Source of the DNA: a virus
DNA length: 29,923 nt
Virus record (IMG/VR): IMGVR_UViG_3300048691_000025
Span: 1-29,923 of that record
Strand: one strand, 5' to 3'
Below the pieces are notes generated by a model that saw only the letters and a program-made list of their open reading frames with translations, did no database searches and had not been told where the DNA came from. A program made the position numbers and the translations under genes. Position 1 is the first letter of the stretch, and each line of letters opens with the position of its first letter. Of this stretch, positions 9,658 through 29,003 are shown in pieces.

Positions 9658-10241
9658 ACCATAAATTTCTTGAAGATTTCTACTTGCTTGTCTTTCATAG
9701 CAGCAGCAGCAATACGAGCAGCAGCAATACGAGCAGCAGCAATACGAGCAGCATTAGTAGCAGCATAAGCAGCAATACGAGCAGCAGCATTAGTAGCAGC
9801 ATCAGCAGCAGCATAAGCAGCATAAGCAGCATCAGCAGCAGCATCAGCAGCATTAGTAGCAGCATTAGTAGCAGCATAAGCAGCATAAGTAGCAGCATTA
9901 GTAGCAGCCCAAGCGGCATCATAAGCAGCCTTCAATTCTTCTACAGTAGCATCACCATGAGCAAACCGTTCGGCTACATCAAGTGCAGCAATACTACGCC
10001 GGTCCGTCATCAGGTGCTGCACTTCCCGAGCAAAGGCAACCGCCATCAGCCGCTTCTCCTTGTCGTAACCATCTACAGCACGTAGGCACCACAAAGCATC
10101 ATCAATGCCGTTGCTTTCTAGGATTGTTAAAAGGCTTAGTTCTACATCGTCTGCTTGAGTTTTGCCCAAGTGCTTCAATAACTTATCCCAACCATCTTTA
10201 CAAGGTTCTTGTTCACGGATTTTGTTCAAAGTAGTTTTCAT
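9654..10241 (-). CDS. Conserved phage protein with Ala-rich repeat tail
   Basis: 195 aa from ATG 10241, which has GGAG five bases upstream and a promoter in front. The N-terminal 110 residues include C-K-D-G-W-D-K-L-L-K-H-L-G-K-T, D-D-A-L-W-C-L-R-A-V and M-T-D-R-R-S-I-A-A-L-D-V-A-E-R-F-A-H-G, a pattern I know from many phages, sometimes labelled an immunity-like protein. From about residue 113 to 187 the sequence is almost only Ala with Tyr, Thr, Asn, Asp, Arg or Ile (A-A-Y-A-A-T-N type units), forming a long helix. The C-terminus (K-Q-V-E-I-F-K-K-F) is ordinary. Function unproven. Confidence 0.8.
   Translation of the reverse strand: MKTTLNKIREQEPCKDGWDKLLKHLGKTQADDVELSLLTILESNGIDDALWCLRAVDGYDKEKRLMAVAFAREVQHLMTDRRSIAALDVAERFAHGDATVEELKAAYDAAWAATNAATYAAYAATNAATNAADAAADAAYAAYAAADAATNAAARIAAYAATNAARIAAARIAAARIAAAAMKDKQVEIFKKFMV
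9700..9915 (-). repeat. Imperfect GCTGCT-based tandem repeats inside a gene
   Basis: The minus strand repeats GCT codons with TAT, AAT, GAT or CGT ATT at regular intervals. Three near-identical 15-nt units (codons A-A-A-R-I) lie at about 9704-9750. Units are multiples of three, so length changes would keep the frame. Confidence 0.85.
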
Positions 10242-10267
10242 AAAGGCTCCAAAAGTTCGATAGACGA

Positions 10268-10273
10268 ATTGTA
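10268..10273 (-). promoter_or_regulatory. Promoter -10 box (TACAAT), TCGT family
   Basis: TACAATTCGTCTATCGAAC on the minus strand, 27 nt before ATG 10241. A TTTACT sequence 18 nt further upstream may be the -35 box. The leader is nearly identical to the one before the gene at 24809. Confidence 0.7.
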
Positions 10274-10304
10274 GCACACCTTTCTACATAAAGTAAATAC
10301 TTTT

Positions 10305-10937
10305 ATGAATATTTCACAAACCTACCTACACCTTATCGCAGAAGACCTAGAAGAAGGAATTATCAAACAGGCAATCGGTGCCACTTTGATTGCAGGAACG
10401 TCCCTACTTGCTTATAAGGCTATGCACAATACCCCTAGTACACTAGAAACCCCCGCTAGGGTTTCTGCCGGGATTGTGAAGAAAATTGGCCTAACCCCAA
10501 TGAGCCAAGAAGAAGCCACTAAGAAAATTGTTGAGCATTGGAAAGTCCACCCAAACACAGCACACCAAATTACTACCGCTGCTTGGAAATATGGCAATAC
10601 GCCACATGTGACCCCGCACGTTTTACTAGGGCTAATGGCTACAGAAAGTTCATTCGACCCTAGCCAAAAAAGCAAACTAAAATCAGATGCCGCTGTGGGG
10701 CTTATGCAGGTTAGACCAAAGATGCACGGATTGAAGTCAAAAGATTTATCCTCTATTGACGCTCAAGTCAAGCATGGGTCGGAATTGCTAAAAAGATTCC
10801 ACAATAGAATGGGTAATATATCTAGTGGCCTAACCGCCTATAACAATGGTGTTACGGCAACCTTGATGAATAAGCCATCATTGAATATGGATTACGCACC
10901 AAAGGTTTTGAGCAATGTTGAAAAGTTTCACAAGTAA
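10305..10937 (+). CDS. SLT-type lytic transglycosylase with virion-leader-like N-terminus
   Basis: 210 aa. Residues about 104-200 form a lysozyme-like SLT domain: L-L-G-L-M-A-T-E-S-S-F-D-P with catalytic Glu114, A-V-G-L-M-Q-V-R-P, and later L-T-A-Y-N-N-G. It should cut glycan strands of peptidoglycan. A hydrophobic segment spans residues about 22-40. The first 20 residues (Y-L-H-L-I-A-E-D-L-E-E-G-I-I) resemble the leader of the protein at 27055 and contain (L/I)-x-E sites like those cut by T4 prohead protease, so it may be packaged in the virion and help genome delivery. No Shine-Dalgarno is visible; GTAAATAC lies 5 nt before the ATG, so it may be leaderless. It is transcribed opposite to its neighbours. 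Confidence 0.85.
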   Translation: MNISQTYLHLIAEDLEEGIIKQAIGATLIAGTSLLAYKAMHNTPSTLETPARVSAGIVKKIGLTPMSQEEATKKIVEHWKVHPNTAHQITTAAWKYGNTPHVTPHVLLGLMATESSFDPSQKSKLKSDAAVGLMQVRPKMHGLKSKDLSSIDAQVKHGSELLKRFHNRMGNISSGLTAYNNGVTATLMNKPSLNMDYAPKVLSNVEKFHK

Positions 10938-12935: not shown

Positions 12936-12963
12936 AATATTCTCCTAAAAGTTCAATAGACGA

Positions 12964-12969
12964 ATTGTA
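12964..12969 (-). promoter_or_regulatory. Promoter -10 box (TACAAT), TCGT family
   Basis: TACAATTCGTCTATTGAAC on the minus strand, 29 nt before ATG 12935, in front of the RNA ligase transcription unit. Confidence 0.7.
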
Positions 12970-12975
12970 GCACAA

Positions 12976-13593
12976 TTACTTAGATTTTACGCGATACTCC
13001 ATCAAATATTTGAACTTAATTTGTTCTGGGTCAACGCGAACCCACGTTTTGTTAATTTGATGGTGACCAGAATCATGATCGTACCAAGGGATATCCAACT
13101 GAATTTCGATATCTTTACCTTCTTTGATAGCAGCCTGAAGTTTAACAAATTGTGTAATCTCTGGGTTAGTCTCGACCAACTCAAAGAATGTTGCGGCTTG
13201 GTCTTTATCAATATAGATAGCACCTTCTTCAGTGCATATAGCCATAGAGTGATTGACCGGAATTACTCCAACAGAAAAGTCTACAACACCTTGACCGAAC
13301 GCTTGGAATGGAGACTCTTTTCCTTCTGGGAGGGTATTGAATTCACATTCACAGAATTCTTCATCTTTGACTTCCATAAACATTACTGTGTTGAACGAAC
13401 AACCGGGGTAATCTACAAGATAAACTTCAGAATACAAGTTACCGATTTGAACATAACTAACTTCGTAGATTTCACCTTCTACTAAACCCCGGTTAATTGC
13501 GTAGGCGCGATGGTATTCTCCACCTTGGCTATTCATAAACATCACTTTAGTTCCGGGTTTAGAAAAAATGTCCATGTCTTTAAAGTTTTTCAT
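12976..13593 (-). CDS. Conserved hypothetical phage protein (205 aa)
   Basis: ATG 13593 was chosen for its GGAG seven bases upstream; the longer frame to 13644 lacks one. The N-terminal part (K-V-M-F-M-N-S-Q-G-G, G-L-V-E-G-E-I-Y-E-V, Y-P-G-C-S-F-N-T-V-M-F) follows a pattern seen in small phage proteins of unknown function. The rest is beta-rich, with a W-Y-D-H-D-S-G-H-H patch near residue 170. Its last 17 nt are identical to the last 17 nt of the gp47 gene upstream, suggesting insertion by recombination. A weak -10 (TATATT) is at 13643-13648. Confidence 0.65.
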   Translation of the reverse strand: MKNFKDMDIFSKPGTKVMFMNSQGGEYHRAYAINRGLVEGEIYEVSYVQIGNLYSEVYLVDYPGCSFNTVMFMEVKDEEFCECEFNTLPEGKESPFQAFGQGVVDFSVGVIPVNHSMAICTEEGAIYIDKDQAATFFELVETNPEITQFVKLQAAIKEGKDIEIQLDIPWYDHDSGHHQINKTWVRVDPEQIKFKYLMEYRVKSK

Positions 13594-14680: not shown

Positions 14681-14874
14681 TTTGGGTGCTCGCATTGTAC
14701 TTTACCGTGGCTAACAACTTCTAGCCAACAATTCCTAGAACATTTCTGCCACGAATTTCCATGACCATCCTCGATAGATGGGTTGGCAAAAATCTTGGCA
14801 AAATTCTCGGCATATAGCGCATCGTTGCGCTCTAATCTTGGTAAAGAACCTTTACCACCATCAGACATTTTCAT
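14668..14874 (-). CDS. Conserved small phage protein with M-S-D-G-G-K-G-S motif
   Basis: 68 aa from ATG 14874, whose TATGA overlaps the stop of the polymerase C-part. It begins M-K-M-S-D-G-G-K-G-S-L-P-R, which I recognise from a widespread small phage protein of unknown function (usually M-S-D-G-G-K-G-S-x-x-R-P). The C-terminal 20 residues hold four cysteines (K-C-S-R-N-C-W and Q-C-E-H-P-K-C), a possible zinc site. Start could also be ATG 14868. Confidence 0.7.
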   Translation of the reverse strand: MKMSDGGKGSLPRLERNDALYAENFAKIFANPSIEDGHGNSWQKCSRNCWLEVVSHGKVQCEHPKCPK

Positions 14875-16202
14875 AGGACAAACCTTCTTTCTGTACTCCA
14901 ACCAACTACATCAGCAACCCTCTGTAATGGTTCCTTAAAAAACTTGGCAAACATTGCATGCCTATCGACAAATTGTTCGATTCCAAATTCAGGCGGAATC
15001 TTGTCGGAGAATGCAATGCACTCCGCTTTTGTGGGGTTTGGTGTAACCAACGCAGCAACCTTTATCTTGTCACCAGACTTGATCAATTGGTACTTCCCAG
15101 TCAGCTTCTTGGATTGTATCATATTGTTGTATGCACATGCTCCCTTCAAGTGGTATGGTGTCCCTTTGGTTGGAACCCCATCAATAATGTACTGGGTAAG
15201 GTTGTTGGCAGAACTTGCAGCGGTCAGTAGCGATAATTCTTCGTTCATATAATCACTCTCGACCTTTTTGCAAAATGCTTGGAAGGTTTTTTCATCACCA
15301 GAGAAGAAAATCTTGTAGGCATCTTTAAGCCTATCTCGACACCATTTAGGCGTAGAAGACCTTTGCGATTCCAGTCCAGTAACCTTCTGGTCCGGTGTGG
15401 CGTACCGTACACCTTCCATATCAAAGACCTCAAACACAAACCGCTTCTTGGCTACAATGATGCCTGTAGAGATTGCTTCTCGCTTCATGTATAGGCGCTG
15501 CTTCATCCCATTGGTGTCTTTGGTGATTTCGTCCATACCACCAGCAATCACTTGGGCAAGTTTTCCTTGGCAGAACTTGTCAAGAATATCGACCTGCTTT
15601 TCTTTGGGAATATCTTTGGAGACATTCTTCATCAGATTTGTCATGTCAATATAATTTGAGTCCGTATCTCCTGCTATGACTTTGATAGCGGGTTCGCCAC
15701 TTTGACCAATTTTCAGACCATATGCATTGACAATGTTTTCATTGTTTTGGATAACGGCTTGTCCAGTCAATGTGATAGCACTTGCCAAATCCACATCGAA
15801 GAACCTGAAATGTTTGTTGCCTAACGCACCATAACCTATATGTTAAATGTGATACGCTACGACCACACTGAAGTTTATTACAACTTTCCTGTATGTCACC
15901 ATACAGAGCAGACTATCTCTTAGGCTGTTCTAGCCCCCGCGCACTTCCCATCGCTTGATGGTACGGTATTTCTACCTAGTCGTTACACCCGATTTAACTT
16001 GGCACGGTATTGTCTTGCTTAACAAGAGTTCCACCGTTTTCACGCGGTTTTCTATTGGTATCCCTACCAAAAGCGCCTATCAATTAAGCGAATTTGCTAA
16101 AACTTTGTAAGCAGAATCAAGGGTGCCATAAGTGGATATGAGTCCATCTACGCGCTCTTTTTCTGATAGCAACCCCTCTAATGACATTGAGGATAAATCC
16201 AT
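14871..16202 (-). CDS. 43: DNA polymerase C-terminal part (gp43B), spliced gene
   Basis: Join of exon 1 (16202-16087) and exon 2 (15834-14871), 359 aa. Exon 1 begins at ATG 16202 with AAGGAG upstream and ends K-V-L-A-N-S-L; exon 2 begins Y-G-A-L-G-N. Together they give motif B of T4-type family B polymerases. Exon 2 then has G-D-T-D-S (motif C, D95 and D97), the K-K-R-F site and a thumb region. Without splicing the frame stops after 40 codons, losing motif C. The other half, with exonuclease and motif A, is encoded at 24848-26296; the two must associate to form an active enzyme. The gene lies downstream of 62 and regA, its usual place in T4. It has its own promoter at 16232. Confidence 0.88.
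15835..16086 (-). ncRNA. Group I intron in the DNA polymerase gene (252 nt, no ORF)
   Basis: Boundaries follow from restoring the N-S-L-Y-G-A-L-G-N codons. The 5' exon ends in U and pairs with an internal guide: C-G-C-U then U pairs with AGGCG at 16074-16078, giving the usual U-G pair at the splice site (16087 with 16077). The intron ends in G (15835). Core elements are a Q-like AATACCGTGCCAAG (15998-16011), an R-like GTGTAACGACTAGG (15975-15988) and an S-like AAGAGATAGTCTGC (15908-15921); GACTA and TAGTC pair as P7. No homing endonuclease is present, so mobility would depend on one supplied elsewhere. Confidence 0.85.
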
Positions 16203-17353: not shown

Positions 17354-17761
17354 TTACTTCCTTCCGATTTTGTACTTCTCAATAAGTTGCCATTCTTGTG
17401 CCCACTTGGATGTTAACACAAAAACGAACTGGTCTGCAACTTCTTTAATATTATCTGGTGTATGGAGAATCTTCACCAAACCCCAGTCAGACAGCATTGT
17501 AGCAATCTTTTTAGTTCTTCCCAAGTCAATATCGTCTAGTGTTGTTTTTCTACCATCTAGCGCCATTAGCTGCTTGAAGTGGCAGATGTAGTATTTGCCA
17601 CGCTTGAATAGGATGTTGCAAGATTGATAGATGATCTTTTCTTGCTTATTCGCAATCCCCATCCGGCGTAATGTTTCTCTAATGATTAGGAAGTCGTCGT
17701 CCGATTCTATAGAAACCTCAATGAAACCTGCGATGATTTGTTGTACTTGTTCTTCAGTCAT
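17354..17761 (-). CDS. regA: RegA translational repressor
   Basis: 135 aa; T4 RegA has 122. Strong resemblance through D-F-L-I-I-R-E-T-L-R-R-M-G-I-A-N, I-Y-Q-S-C-N-I-L, G-K-Y-Y-I-C-H-F-K, the M-L-S-D-W-G-L-V-K-I segment and the ending W-Q-L-I-E-K-Y-K-I-G. RegA binds near start codons of early phage mRNAs and blocks translation, including its own. The N-terminus is about 10-15 residues longer than in T4. It follows gene 62, as in T4. A hairpin upstream takes up part of its ribosome-binding site. Confidence 0.92.
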   Translation of the reverse strand: MTEEQVQQIIAGFIEVSIESDDDFLIIRETLRRMGIANKQEKIIYQSCNILFKRGKYYICHFKQLMALDGRKTTLDDIDLGRTKKIATMLSDWGLVKILHTPDNIKEVADQFVFVLTSKWAQEWQLIEKYKIGRK

Positions 17762-24847: not shown

Positions 24848-26296
24848 TTATCCACGGCGCTTGATAATTTCAGCCTCAATCAATTCCAGTTCTCGCTTAT
24901 ATTCCAACTTCTTTTTCTTCGCCGCCTTGCGCTTGTCAAAAATTCTTTCTGCAAGGATTGGAATGAACCCAGCAACTTTCCGACTACACAAAACCCCATT
25001 GCCAGATAAGGTTGCATCATGGCTTTCTGCAAATTCTTTCGCAGCGGCCCATTTTTCCGTTCGGTCAATTATATCACTGGGTCGGATAGAGGGCCACAAA
25101 TCCTTGCGCAAAACCGTTTCTGGGGAGATGTTGTTCTGAATAATGATAGATGGGTATAGCGACTCCAAATCGAAGCTGACTAACCACTCATAGAAGCCCC
25201 TAATCGGGTCTTTGACGAACGCACCTTCATACCCCTCACCTACCCCACCAGCCTTCGTAAAAGGGACGCATACGCCCAATTCTAGCAGGTAGTTGTGAAT
25301 CATCACATCCCATACTCGCACATTGCTCAAAGTGTCTTCGTAGTTCACCTTGGCAATGTATGCAACCGACATAACCATGTCAATAAAGTTTAGCTTGTCA
25401 TTAAGGTTCTTTACAAGCCTTACATCATGAATGTTGTACTCTACAAATTTTGCAGGGTGGTTTGTGTATTGCTCATAGAAACTTCCGGGAATTTCGATTT
25501 TCTTGTCCTTTAGCTCAACTTCGGCAATGAAGTCCAGCTTGTAACTTTCCCGAGTAATTAGTCGAAACTTTTTGTACAAGACCATCATATCAAGGTTCTG
25601 TACCCCGGCAATGTTTACCGAATGCTGCACCCTTCCAGTGTCATCGGTTTCTATGTTGAACTTCACCAAGCCAAATGGAGACAATCGCTTCATATCATCT
25701 TTACCTAAGACGACTTCGACCCGCTTGGCAATATACGGCATATCATAGCCTTGGCAATTCCACCCAGACACCCAATCTGGTCGAATCATAGACCAGTGCT
25801 GTACAAACTTTGCAAGCAACTCGGCCTCTGAATTGAATCGAACAATCCTTGCCGATGGGATTTCAATGCCTGTAATGTCTAGGGTTGTGTAGCAGAAGTA
25901 GGTGCCATTGAAAAACAACGTGACGCAATTGATTGGCGTATCTGCTGTTTCGATGTTTGGGAAAGCGTCCGTAACGGCATTCTCAATGTCTATGTAAACG
26001 CCTTTAATCTTTTTCAAATCATAGTCGTTACCATAGGTGTCATTGATAAGGGCGTATGAGAACCTATCAAAGCCATAGCAACCATTACCAAAAGACTTTG
26101 CAAAATCCCGTGCAGATTTTGTGTCGTTGAATTTGATGGGCTTTAGAACTTCTCCGTGGATGGTCTTGAAGTCTCCACGACCAGAAACGTATAGGGTTGG
26201 CTCTAGTGGGATTTCGCGGTAAAAGTCTTTGCCGTTATCATGCTCTACTACAAGAGCCTTGGTGCCGTACTGGGTGAATGATTTAAAAAATTTCAT
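24848..26296 (-). CDS. 43: DNA polymerase N-terminal part (gp43A)
   Basis: 482 aa from ATG 26296 (AGGAT upstream; the longer frame to 26335 lacks a site). It has the T4-type family B N-terminal domain, then exonuclease motifs I (Y-I-D-I-E-N, D103/E105), II (W-N-C-Q-G-Y-D, N180/D185) and III (Y-N-I-H-D, Y287/D291), and polymerase motif A (S-F-D-L-E-S-L-Y-P-S, D376). It ends after basic helices at A-E-I-I-K-R-R-G, in the fingers region. Motifs B and C are missing and are encoded at 14871-16202. T4 gp43 is one 898-residue chain; both parts here total 841. Alone it could proofread but not polymerise. Confidence 0.93.
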   Translation of the reverse strand: MKFFKSFTQYGTKALVVEHDNGKDFYREIPLEPTLYVSGRGDFKTIHGEVLKPIKFNDTKSARDFAKSFGNGCYGFDRFSYALINDTYGNDYDLKKIKGVYIDIENAVTDAFPNIETADTPINCVTLFFNGTYFCYTTLDITGIEIPSARIVRFNSEAELLAKFVQHWSMIRPDWVSGWNCQGYDMPYIAKRVEVVLGKDDMKRLSPFGLVKFNIETDDTGRVQHSVNIAGVQNLDMMVLYKKFRLITRESYKLDFIAEVELKDKKIEIPGSFYEQYTNHPAKFVEYNIHDVRLVKNLNDKLNFIDMVMSVAYIAKVNYEDTLSNVRVWDVMIHNYLLELGVCVPFTKAGGVGEGYEGAFVKDPIRGFYEWLVSFDLESLYPSIIIQNNISPETVLRKDLWPSIRPSDIIDRTEKWAAAKEFAESHDATLSGNGVLCSRKVAGFIPILAERIFDKRKAAKKKKLEYKRELELIEAEIIKRRG

Positions 26297-26300
26297 GGTT

Positions 26301-26317
26301 ATCCTAATCCGAATTAG
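26301..26317 (-). promoter_or_regulatory. Hairpin at the polymerase N-part ribosome-binding site
   Basis: CTAAT and ATTAG flank the loop TCGG on the minus strand (stem 26313-26317 with 26304-26308); the second arm overlaps the AGGAT site before ATG 26296. T4 gp43 represses its own translation through a similar leader hairpin, so this may be an operator. Inferred. Confidence 0.5.
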
Positions 26318-26323
26318 ACTAGG

Positions 26324-26329
26324 ATTATA
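26324..26329 (-). promoter_or_regulatory. Promoter -10 box (TATAAT) for polymerase N-part
   Basis: TATAAT on the minus strand, 27 nt before ATG 26296, in the short gap after the upstream gene. No clear -35. Confidence 0.6.
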
Positions 26330-26340
26330 CCACAAAAGTT

Positions 26341-27051
26341 TTATAAAGGAATTCCGGCTTGATTGAAGTGGTTTGCTACAGCCTTAACGTCATTGCTGTG
26401 TGCAATGGCGCGACCATACTGAATCTTGAAACTTGGGGCGACTGCTTTAATGTCATCCCGGTTCTTGATTGCATGGAACATTTGGGCATTCGACAGAAGT
26501 TCGGAACTATGTTCGCCTTCTTTGTTTGGAGAACTATTCTCAAACGTTTGTTTGTGCTGGGCAGTTTGTGGTGCCAACTTTGGGATGTGTTCCGAGGTGA
26601 CATGGCCTAGGTACTTTGGTTCTACATCCTTACCCAATACAACTGCCATTTGGTCTGTATGGTAGCCTTCATAGCCGTGGTTCAATACGGCGCTCTCAAA
26701 GGCGTTTAGACGGTCTGCTCCGGCATCTACAAGGGTTTGTCTAGTCTTGTTGATAGACTTTGTATTGTGGTCGCCCTTCATTGCATCATACATCTTGGAT
26801 GACCTGTATTCATAGGCGTGGTTACCTAGACCAGCCTCTTTGTATGGCAACCCACTAGCAGGTTTTGGGTAGAAGTAAACCCGCTTCTTGATGCGCTGGT
26901 CATTGGATAGTGCAACCCGGTCTGCTTCCTTACCCTTGATACCACGACCATAGAATGCCCCTGCAAGCACCCCTAGGTTCGGCTTCGTGGAGTAATGCAC
27001 CCCAACGAATTCTTGGGTAGATTCTAGCAAAAATTCTGTAAGGGTTTTCAC
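26341..27051 (-). CDS. Probable virion cargo protein with ADP-ribosyltransferase-like domain
   Basis: 236 aa, probably from GTG 27051 (an upstream in-frame stop excludes longer forms). The first 11 residues, M-K-T-L-T-E-F-L-L-E-S, look like T4 internal-protein leaders (M-K-T-x-x-E-F), with an (L/I)-x-E cleavage pattern at L-L-E. After it comes V-G-V-H-Y-S-T-K-P, Y-G-R-G-I-K-G-K-E-A-D-R and R-V-Y-F-Y-P, then A-V-L-N-H-G-Y-E-G-Y-H. I recognise this from domains in phage polyvalent and head-associated proteins, sometimes thought ADP-ribosyltransferase-like; this is from memory. If right, it could be injected with the DNA to modify host proteins. Confidence 0.6.
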   Translation of the reverse strand: MKTLTEFLLESTQEFVGVHYSTKPNLGVLAGAFYGRGIKGKEADRVALSNDQRIKKRVYFYPKPASGLPYKEAGLGNHAYEYRSSKMYDAMKGDHNTKSINKTRQTLVDAGADRLNAFESAVLNHGYEGYHTDQMAVVLGKDVEPKYLGHVTSEHIPKLAPQTAQHKQTFENSSPNKEGEHSSELLSNAQMFHAIKNRDDIKAVAPSFKIQYGRAIAHSNDVKAVANHFNQAGIPL

Positions 27052-27054
27052 ATT

Positions 27055-27732
27055 TCATTCGTCGTTTAGTTTTTTATAGTCTGATAAATTATCTTGAGTC
27101 AAATATTTTCGGTTCAACGCCCGTGTGCGGTGTAATTCCTGCTCTCCGTGTGGGGTAATTGTATCAATATCACCTCGGTTCGTTTTGTATGTCAATCGGT
27201 TAATATTACCAGTCTTGTCTATATAAGTGCTCTTGTGCATAAAATTCACAGCATCTTTTGCTTGGTCTTCTATGGTATCCCCAGATGCGCCTTCAATTTT
27301 TAGTTTACCACCATCCGACGACATTGCGCCGAGAATATGACCAACTTTAGGATGAATGTTATCTTCTAATGACCTCGCAACTTCAACTCCGTGGTTTGCA
27401 TCTTCGTCAGATACTCCGGTTTTTGATTTCAATATAGAAGCTAATTCTGGCTTTGATTTATTTTCGTAATCTTTGGCATGAATTGCTACGCTGTCGATGA
27501 GTTTTGAATTGTGGATTTCGTTGTGAACATGAACACCCAACCCACCTAGACCTAGTGCGGCGGCTGCACCAAACCCAACAGCAGTGGCGGCTAATGGAAG
27601 GTCATCGCGAACGTGATCTTTATATGCAGATTTTAATTTATCTACTACTCCTTCAGACAATTCCTCTTGGACAATATCAATATACGATTGTTTAAATGAT
27701 TCTGATATCACATTATACTCCTTGTTAAACAT
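27055..27732 (-). CDS. Probable virion cargo/internal membrane protein
   Basis: 225 aa from ATG 27732; GTG 27711 is an equally good start, with AAGGAG at ideal spacing. The N-terminus Y-I-D-I-V-Q-E-E-L-S-E-G-V-V parallels the transglycosylase leader at 10305 and has L-S-E-G as a possible prohead-protease site. A Gly/Ala-rich hydrophobic segment follows (L-A-A-T-A-V-G-F-G-A-A-A-A-L-G-L-G-G, about 47-66), then a polar body with N-H-G-V-E-V-A-R-S-L-E. No enzyme domain recognised. It lies between gp15 and the ART-like gene, behind a 22-bp repeat array that repeats its ribosome-binding site. Confidence 0.6.
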   Translation of the reverse strand: MFNKEYNVISESFKQSYIDIVQEELSEGVVDKLKSAYKDHVRDDLPLAATAVGFGAAAALGLGGLGVHVHNEIHNSKLIDSVAIHAKDYENKSKPELASILKSKTGVSDEDANHGVEVARSLEDNIHPKVGHILGAMSSDGGKLKIEGASGDTIEDQAKDAVNFMHKSTYIDKTGNINRLTYKTNRGDIDTITPHGEQELHRTRALNRKYLTQDNLSDYKKLNDE

Positions 27733-27787
27733 AGTTATACTCCTTGTTAAACATATTTATACTCCTCGTTAAACATAGTTATACTCC
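27713..27787 (-). repeat. Three tandem 22-bp copies of a ribosome-binding site and start codon
   Basis: Copies at 27713-27734, 27735-27756 and 27757-27778, plus a 9-bp partial at 27779-27787 that overlaps the gp15 stop. On the minus strand each copy has GGAG, TATAA and ATGTTTAAC. The first two copies open 9-codon minicistrons (starts 27776 and 27754); the third opens the next gene. The middle junction contains TATAAATA, the T4 late promoter octamer. Confidence 0.9.
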
Positions 27788-28561
27788 GGTGATCGTTTCT
27801 TTAATTGTGTATGGGTCATTTGCACCAATATTTGCCAATGACACCCCATTGATATAGGGGACAAAGTTGTAGTTGACCAAGAAGTTCCTCAATGCTGGGT
27901 TCACATCAAGCTGGCTATAATCGTACAAGGTTACATCCACCGTCTTGATTATACCTGATTCCCGTACAGGCCCAAACAAGAACCCCTTTACGACAAAATC
28001 AAACCGCCACTGGATTGTACGACGCTGCTCAAACTCCCCATCATATGTGTCTGTAGAAGAATTAGAAACCAGCGTGATAGGCACATCATAGCCAATTTCA
28101 GGATTACCAACCCCGCGCATTGCAATGGTGTAATCTGGTGTGAAGAATGGCGCAAGTTGTTCTACGACTTGGTACGCATCTGACTTAGATTTTGCAATCA
28201 ATGTTGCCGAATATGTAATATCATATGGGACTGGGGTGTAGACTGTAGATGACTTATTAGTCTCATTGAAATAAACAAACCTATGCTTACCAGAAATCTT
28301 CCTATCAGGTGCATAGGATAGGCTTGTCATCTCGTAGCCGATTCTTGGCAAAACTATTGCAGGTTGCCGAAGCAAGTCGGTATCAGCCTGTGTGCGCTGG
28401 ATGAACTTTTCTTTTTCGGAATAGACTACGGGAACCCGCTGGCGGCTATTTTCGGTCCCATCGGTGTTATACCGGACTACATCAATGCCATCCAGCAATG
28501 CCCCCATGACTAGAGAGTATTTTTTGAGTAGTTCGTGATAAAAATGTGTTTTATAAATCAT
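27779..28561 (-). CDS. 15: Tail sheath stabiliser and completion protein gp15
   Basis: 260 aa; T4 gp15 has 272. The pattern F-Y-H-E-L-L-K-K-Y-S-L-V-M-G-A-L-L-D-G-I, R-V-P-V-V-Y-S-E-K-E-K-F-I, L-P-R-I-G-Y-E-M-T-S-L-S-Y and V-V-E-Q-L-A-P-F-F-T-P-D matches gp15 closely, as does R-R-T-I-Q-W-R-F-D-F-V-V-K-G. gp15 caps the top of the tail tube and sheath before head joining. Its ATG overlaps the phosphatase stop (ATGA), and its end lies in the 22-bp repeat. Confidence 0.9.
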   Translation of the reverse strand: MIYKTHFYHELLKKYSLVMGALLDGIDVVRYNTDGTENSRQRVPVVYSEKEKFIQRTQADTDLLRQPAIVLPRIGYEMTSLSYAPDRKISGKHRFVYFNETNKSSTVYTPVPYDITYSATLIAKSKSDAYQVVEQLAPFFTPDYTIAMRGVGNPEIGYDVPITLVSNSSTDTYDGEFEQRRTIQWRFDFVVKGFLFGPVRESGIIKTVDVTLYDYSQLDVNPALRNFLVNYNFVPYINGVSLANIGANDPYTIKETITGV

Positions 28562-28968
28562 GCACTATTTAGTGCTGCTAACATCAACTGGGTTACTCGT
28601 TGATTTGGTTCCCTGCGACCACCAGCATCATCAAACCCCATCATGACCCCAATGGCGGCAACGGCACCAGACCTACTGATACCACGGTTGCAATGCACGA
28701 CCACGTTTGCATTATTCGCCAAAGCATTGCGCAGTATTGCCACCAAATGACTAGCTTGTTCGTGGCTAATCATACATTCTTCGTCAAACCCCGGGTCATC
28801 AGATTCTATATCAAGGAATTCAAACTGATGAACTTCGGCAAAGTTATGTGCAGGTGTAGGCCAGTGGTATGGGCAAATGTCCATAATCTGAATGAGTACA
28901 GCATTAGCACCGGGTTCAACGTGGTTTGCTGTTGTTACATCTAAGGCTGATATGTTTTGAATGTGCAT
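28558..28968 (-). CDS. Dual-specificity protein phosphatase-like protein
   Basis: 136 aa from ATG 28968. The signature H-C-N-R-G-I-S-R-S-G (H92, C93, R99) is the H-C-x5-R loop of cysteine-dependent phosphatases. Upstream L-D-I-E-S-D-D-P could supply the acid, and G-V-M-M-G-F follows as usual. It may act on phosphorylated host proteins, RNA ends or nucleotides. TATAAT lies only 6 nt before the ATG, so the mRNA would have almost no leader; an upstream ATG at 28995 would be inside the promoter. It is coupled to gp15. Confidence 0.8.
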   Translation of the reverse strand: MHIQNISALDVTTANHVEPGANAVLIQIMDICPYHWPTPAHNFAEVHQFEFLDIESDDPGFDEECMISHEQASHLVAILRNALANNANVVVHCNRGISRSGAVAAIGVMMGFDDAGGRREPNQRVTQLMLAALNSA

Positions 28969-28974
28969 GTACGA

Positions 28975-28980
28975 ATTATA
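28975..28980 (-). promoter_or_regulatory. Promoter -10 box (TATAAT), TCGT family
   Basis: TATAATTCGTAC on the minus strand, directly before ATG 28968; transcription would begin at or next to the start codon. Confidence 0.6.
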
Positions 28981-29003
28981 CACGATTATAGACAATTATA
29001 GAA

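Follow-up and report, generated by a model that had tools for sequence, protein, structure and literature searches.

A tandem array of candidate translation-start modules between a tail sheath stabiliser gene and an accessory gene in a T4-like phage

Introduction

Why should the junction between a tail gene and its downstream neighbour carry a translation start signal several times over, and does the number of copies matter to the neighbour? The question is raised by a 22-bp repeat near one end of the window, by which we mean the whole stretch of DNA analysed, 29,923 bases that make up an entire IMG/VR virus record from an uncultivated phage. The window is a fragment of a T4-like myovirus, and its T4-like genes include those for the gp15 tail sheath stabiliser, the gp45 clamp, the gp43 polymerase, a baseplate hub/lysozyme protein and RegA, among others. 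The repeat is probably, though far from certainly, a translation-initiation region that slippage amplified in tandem where gp15 meets a recently gained accessory gene, P0001, and that forms a chain of short leaders like those of bicistronic designs (BCD). The features needed for the argument are the following, the units and small open reading frames (ORFs) being taken directly from the sequence and the energies being those of the Shine-Dalgarno (SD) duplex.

27779-28561, minus strand: gp15-like proximal tail sheath stabiliser gene (PF16724, E=2.4e-58; PHROG 227, E=5e-62)
27713-27787, minus strand: 22-bp tandem array of 3.4 copies, a full unit being GGAG, 7 nt and ATG (TRF score 136)
27766-27787, minus strand: repeat unit 1, GGAGTATAACTATGTTTAACGA
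27744-27765, minus strand: repeat unit 2, GGAGTATAAATATGTTTAACAA, carrying the only TATAAATA found in the window by pattern search
27722-27743, minus strand: repeat unit 3, GGAGTATAACTATGTTTAACAA
27721-27709, minus strand: partial copy after unit 3, GGAGTATAATGTG
27747-27776, minus strand: mini-ORF 1, MFNEEYKYV* (SD energy -6.1)
27725-27754, minus strand: mini-ORF 2, MFNKEYNYV* (SD energy -8.4)
27055-27732, minus strand: P0001, the gene downstream of the array, with an 88% identical homologue in the related contig L002
26341-27051, minus strand: P0003, the gene next after P0001

Anatomy of the array

An earlier note on this DNA described three 22-bp copies with GGAG and ATG, the first two opening nine-codon peptides and each copy lying in a different frame, and pointed to a GTG after a further GGAG inside the gene as a fourth start site. 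TRF, the sequence itself and a pattern search bear out this anatomy: mini-ORFs 1 and 2 have nine sense codons each, the three array ATGs (27776, 27754 and 27732) fall in three different frames, and the GTG is found at 27711, in frame with P0001. The same note placed the beginning of the array at the gp15 stop, which is nearly correct; the exact start is six bases before the stop, in the last codons of gp15, GGA GTA TAA, which open repeat unit 1. The first ATG (27776) consequently sits two bases past the gp15 stop (27779), a gap of +2 nt.

TRF gives a period of 22, 3.4 copies and 94% matches for 27713-27787. Its score of 136 places the array far above chance, since shuffling the window 40 times with dinucleotides preserved gave a best score of 50 for any array with a period of at least 10. 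GGAG, spacer and ATG are intact in the units, with just two point differences, and on the minus strand the three units are followed directly by GGAGTATAATGTGATATC. The sequence GGAGTATAA occurs four times in the window, always inside the array, so there are no dispersed copies in the record. An assembly artefact is unlikely, as the array spans 75 bp, probably less than the length of the reads, and its copies differ at two positions. A search of Rfam gave no match.

Relatives and the history of the array

A search for gp15 in viral contigs gave three close contigs, L002, L003 and L004, in which gp15 is 98%, 98% and 76% identical to that of the window, respectively. While L002 has a P0001 homologue, the gene is absent from L003 and from L004, which serves as the outgroup. 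The difference from L003 is a single block, identified by blastn and from the L003 sequence:

27051-27784, minus strand: segment absent from L003, corresponding to the gain of P0001 plus the array

L003 is without this 734-bp segment, and positions equivalent to 27785 and 27050 of the window are joined, with the blastn alignment gap-free on either side. The end of gp15 in L003 reads ACTGGATGA, and there the gp15 stop overlaps the ATG of P0003 (GGATGA). The L002 junction, ACAGGAGTATAATATGTTTAACAAAGAGTATAATATGGTATCAGAA, has one unit and then, 21 bp on and in frame, a second box. The box sequence GAGTATAATATG occurs twice in this junction at that 21-bp spacing, the second box being the weaker, so that matching boxes stand at both ends of the single unit, one at the end of gp15 and the other in codons 5-8 of the downstream gene. 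At the junction the window is longer than L002 by exactly 45 bp, or two units plus one base, the two having about 94% DNA identity overall. With three full units in the window and one in its nearest relative, the locus is a variable-number tandem repeat, and the variation in copy number among relatives that had been looked for is present.

The simplest series suggested by these sequences would begin with no insert, continue with an insert that has a single unit and a pair of boxes, and end with the three units and four boxes of the window. The insert is common to one relative only, so that gain as opposed to loss of units is read from L002 and an outgroup without the gene, which counts against this account. 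Misalignment would find an obvious substrate in the matching pair of boxes in L002, and we infer that the copies arose by replication or recombination slippage between them. Growth by slippage from the gp15 end had been proposed earlier; slippage-type duplication is supported, but growth from the gp15 end alone fits less well than misalignment between boxes, because L002 has matching boxes at both ends of its unit.

Scans with gp15-end and P0003-start patterns gave only L002 and the L003 contig as further relatives, the junction region has no DNA-level relative in the phage collection, and the two-unit motif was not found in viral_contigs. The single-unit motif is present in 10 stretches of the viral contigs, about the chance expectation by a rough estimate, and L002 alone has it at a gp15/P0001 junction. 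In L104 the GGAG-ATG opens a 117-residue ORF (MFNTSTTSNST...) unrelated to P0001, and in the remaining matches the ATG opens at most 27 codons. No other tandem SD-ATG array was found in 111 loci (0.96 Mb), two extra rows being in-gene repeats of L072.

The downstream gene and its start

P0001 has two candidate starts, both in frame: one is the copy-3 ATG (27732), the other the GTG that follows the fourth GGAG (27711). The context of the GTG is AUGUG (AAGGAGUAUAAUGUGA), in which the AUG runs straight into UGA (AUG UGA); in an AUGUG context the choice of AUG or GUG depends on the SD spacer (PMC9841429).

The product of P0001 had no family match in PHROG and Pfam searches and no match in phage records, and its AlphaFold model was unusable (pLDDT 34). 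Its N-terminus (SFKQSYIDIVQEELSEGVV) resembles that of the protein encoded at 10305-10937 (NISQTYLHLIAEDLEEGII), with a local score of 47 that was reached in 1 of 5000 shuffles. The shared module begins at residue 2 of the latter protein, which is transglycosylase-like, and at residue 5 of P0001 when counted from the GTG or residue 12 when counted from the copy-3 ATG. The likeness suggests a common targeting module for virion proteins, and the sequences hint that the fourth site, which is an ATG in L002, may be the older P0001 start. Packaged internal proteins of the T4 type have an N-terminal targeting sequence and then a prohead protease site. Residues 25-28 of P0001 are LSEG, which fits a loose pattern for the cleavage consensus that 8 of 47 proteins match. 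P0001 may be a packaged 'cargo' protein.

Start strength and possible coupling through the leaders

The strength of each SD was expressed as its duplex energy with the 3' end of 16S rRNA, in kcal/mol. Array starts 1-4 have energies of -6.1, -8.4, -8.0 and -8.0, and no SDs elsewhere in the window are as strong as those at copies 2-4; among the 36 called genes, P0001 has the strongest (-8.0 kcal/mol). The two L002 starts have energies of -6.9 and -2.4, so the SDs of the window allele are both stronger and more numerous.

Each leader stop overlaps the next ATG in an 8-nt overlap (ATGTTTAA), the stop of mini-ORF 2 overlapping the ATG of copy 3, and the SD for the next start lies inside the leader codons (GAG GAG or AAG GAG, with duplex energies of -8.0 to -8.4). 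The distance from an upstream stop to the next start is in each case between about -8 and +3 nt, which is the geometry of a coupled junction of the BCD kind. The frame of P0001 is independent of copy number, the last ATG being in every case that of the unit adjoining the gene. Each unit brings its own start, and the stop is located in the unit after it. Thus gp15 and P0001 stay intact with any whole number of units, and additional units would be tolerated even if they were idle.

This anatomy points to a relay from gp15 through leader 1 and leader 2 to P0001. Ribosomes would finish gp15 two bases upstream of the first ATG, or load at any strong SD, and translate a 9-residue leader whose codons hold the next SD; they would then stop 8 nt into the next ORF, restart, and so proceed to the ATG or GTG of P0001. 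The leader peptides themselves are probably by-products. Copies beyond the first probably add little, and are probably tolerated because, with a start and a stop in every unit, they leave the frame of gp15 and P0001 unaltered at any number.

Reported properties of coupled genes agree with parts of the relay. Coupling is most efficient at -4 to +3 nt, drops with growing overlap and is influenced by the SD, and an overlap of -8 nt is one of three enriched spacings (PMC12548453). The gap of +2 nt between gp15 and the first ATG is inside the most efficient range and so supports the relay, whereas the -8 steps may be inefficient, since overlaps longer than -4 nt lower coupling in E. coli (PMC12548453). 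Nor is the relay required, because each start has its own strong SD. Coupling based on RNA structure is without support, as the array RNA is no more stable in its fold than shuffled sequence (z -0.11) and contains no stable hairpins presenting the GGA motifs.

Comparison with known systems

BCD leaders and other cases of termination-reinitiation coupling share with the array a strong first SD, a short leader ORF, a second SD inside the leader codons, and a leader stop overlapping the next start. The array differs in being natural, in its head-to-tail repetition (leader-leader-gene), and in an overlap of 8 nt rather than the 1 or 4 of BCD. Short ORFs at integron attI1 (ORF-11, ORF-18 and ORF-17) likewise bring ribosomes to a newly gained downstream gene, with GGAG about 8 nt before the ATG, and leaders of this kind (ORF-11) raise downstream expression (PMC8876359). 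However, ORF-11 is located at a site of recombination and acts for whichever cassette is present, while the leaders of the array derive from the duplicated start region of the gene itself. MIRUs are short repeated units at gene junctions whose ORF ends couple to neighbours (PMC12548453), but they are dispersed, apparently mobile, and have a -4 spacing. The array is a 22-bp tandem at a single locus, and the confinement of GGAGTATAA to it within the record is unlike the occurrence of MIRU copies at several junctions. A further parallel is a 10-nt tandem duplication over the ribosome-binding site (RBS) at an intercistronic junction, selected in E. coli, which raised ascB expression 5-6 fold (PMC4488073); that unit, a product of laboratory selection, lacks a complete start-stop leader, whereas the units of the array hold complete leaders.

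The elements are of known kinds. What is new, within the sequences and literature searched, is the repetition in series of complete start-leader-stop modules, an arrangement with no match in the collections searched. The related sequences line up as stages of a short evolutionary path, from absence of the gene to the gene with a single start unit and then with three. They illustrate how a phage can integrate a newly gained gene into an operon of tail genes, the final codons of the upstream gene doubling as an SD site. Slippage can then multiply the start signal with all frames undamaged. If copy number matters, nature would have in this array its own version of engineered bicistronic leaders.

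Does copy number matter?

Slippage could change the number of start modules and with it the output of P0001, selection keeping the variation. We consider this unlikely, although it is the foremost of the alternatives to an amplified initiation region. Copy number does differ between the window and L002, the SDs became stronger, the design of the unit preserves the reading frame whatever the copy number, and duplication of an RBS raised expression in laboratory-evolved E. coli (PMC4488073). However, there are two alleles only, ~6% different elsewhere, with no sign of selection or of rapid switching; leaders that occupy three frames could lead ribosomes astray as easily as supply them; and the 111 loci hold no second such array. 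Selected tuning of copy number is unsupported, and neutral expansion explains the data.

Second among the alternatives, and doubtful as well, is that the extra units are neutral or slightly harmful debris of slippage, the translation of P0001 needing the last SD and start only. The position is frame-safe, the leader peptides amount to no more than near copies of the N-terminus of P0001, and the shared N-terminal module begins near the GTG and not at the copy-3 ATG, so the GTG/ATG there may be the original start. Yet the units retain GGAG, spacer and ATG with two point differences only, and a gp15 stop 2 nt from the first ATG is typical coupling geometry. Lower again in our ranking is a broader proposal, that slippage-prone start-leader-stop modules act as a rheostat in which unit number sets the flow of ribosomes from a structural gene to a new accessory gene and varies within a population, with frames unbroken.

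It is very improbable that the TATAA boxes are promoters and the array a cluster of late promoters. One box, in copy 2, does read TATAAATA (27754-27761), which is the T4 late promoter core, and this is its sole occurrence in the window. That single occurrence compares with 1.97 expected and is no enrichment, copies 1, 3 and 4 and both L002 boxes are without it, and the array accordingly does not show the conservation of TATAAATA upstream of late genes that characterises T4 late promoters; sigma-70-like sites in the region are not enriched either (7 against 9.6 expected).

The least probable reading is a candidate binding array for a translational repressor, either phage RegA or host CsrA acting on spaced GGA: the window carries a gene for a RegA homologue (17354-17761, PHROG 242) and a GGA motif recurs every 22 nt, but stable hairpins do not present these motifs and, as far as we know, the late-gene position is unlike known RegA targets, which counts against it. 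In favour of such a reading, CsrA is known to control iraD by way of a short ORF that lies upstream and is coupled to it (PMC5574718).

Other features of the window

The gp43-like DNA polymerase appears to be split between genes at 24848-26335 and 14871-15794, ~9 kb apart with other genes between them, the N-terminal part matching positions 5-495 of PHROG 262 and the C-terminal part positions 538-844. Between the two parts, the gene at 23366-24370 matches PHROG 24943, which is labelled DNA polymerase.

The start of the phosphatase-like gene at 28558-28995 carries three TATAAT boxes at 10-bp spacing (28974-29002, a CTATAATTGT-like repeat), and similar 10-bp repeats are found in L002 (1412-1439) and L003 (133-160). 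A related sequence of 35-45 bp around TACAATTCGTCTATTGAAC is present at 10235-10278, at 12942-12978 and at about 24800, upstream of several genes, and has matches in L002 and L003; this recurring sequence may be a shared promoter. At 9702-9930 there are in-gene repeats of AGCAGCA-type units with periods of 9-54, which have a partial match (81%) in L003.
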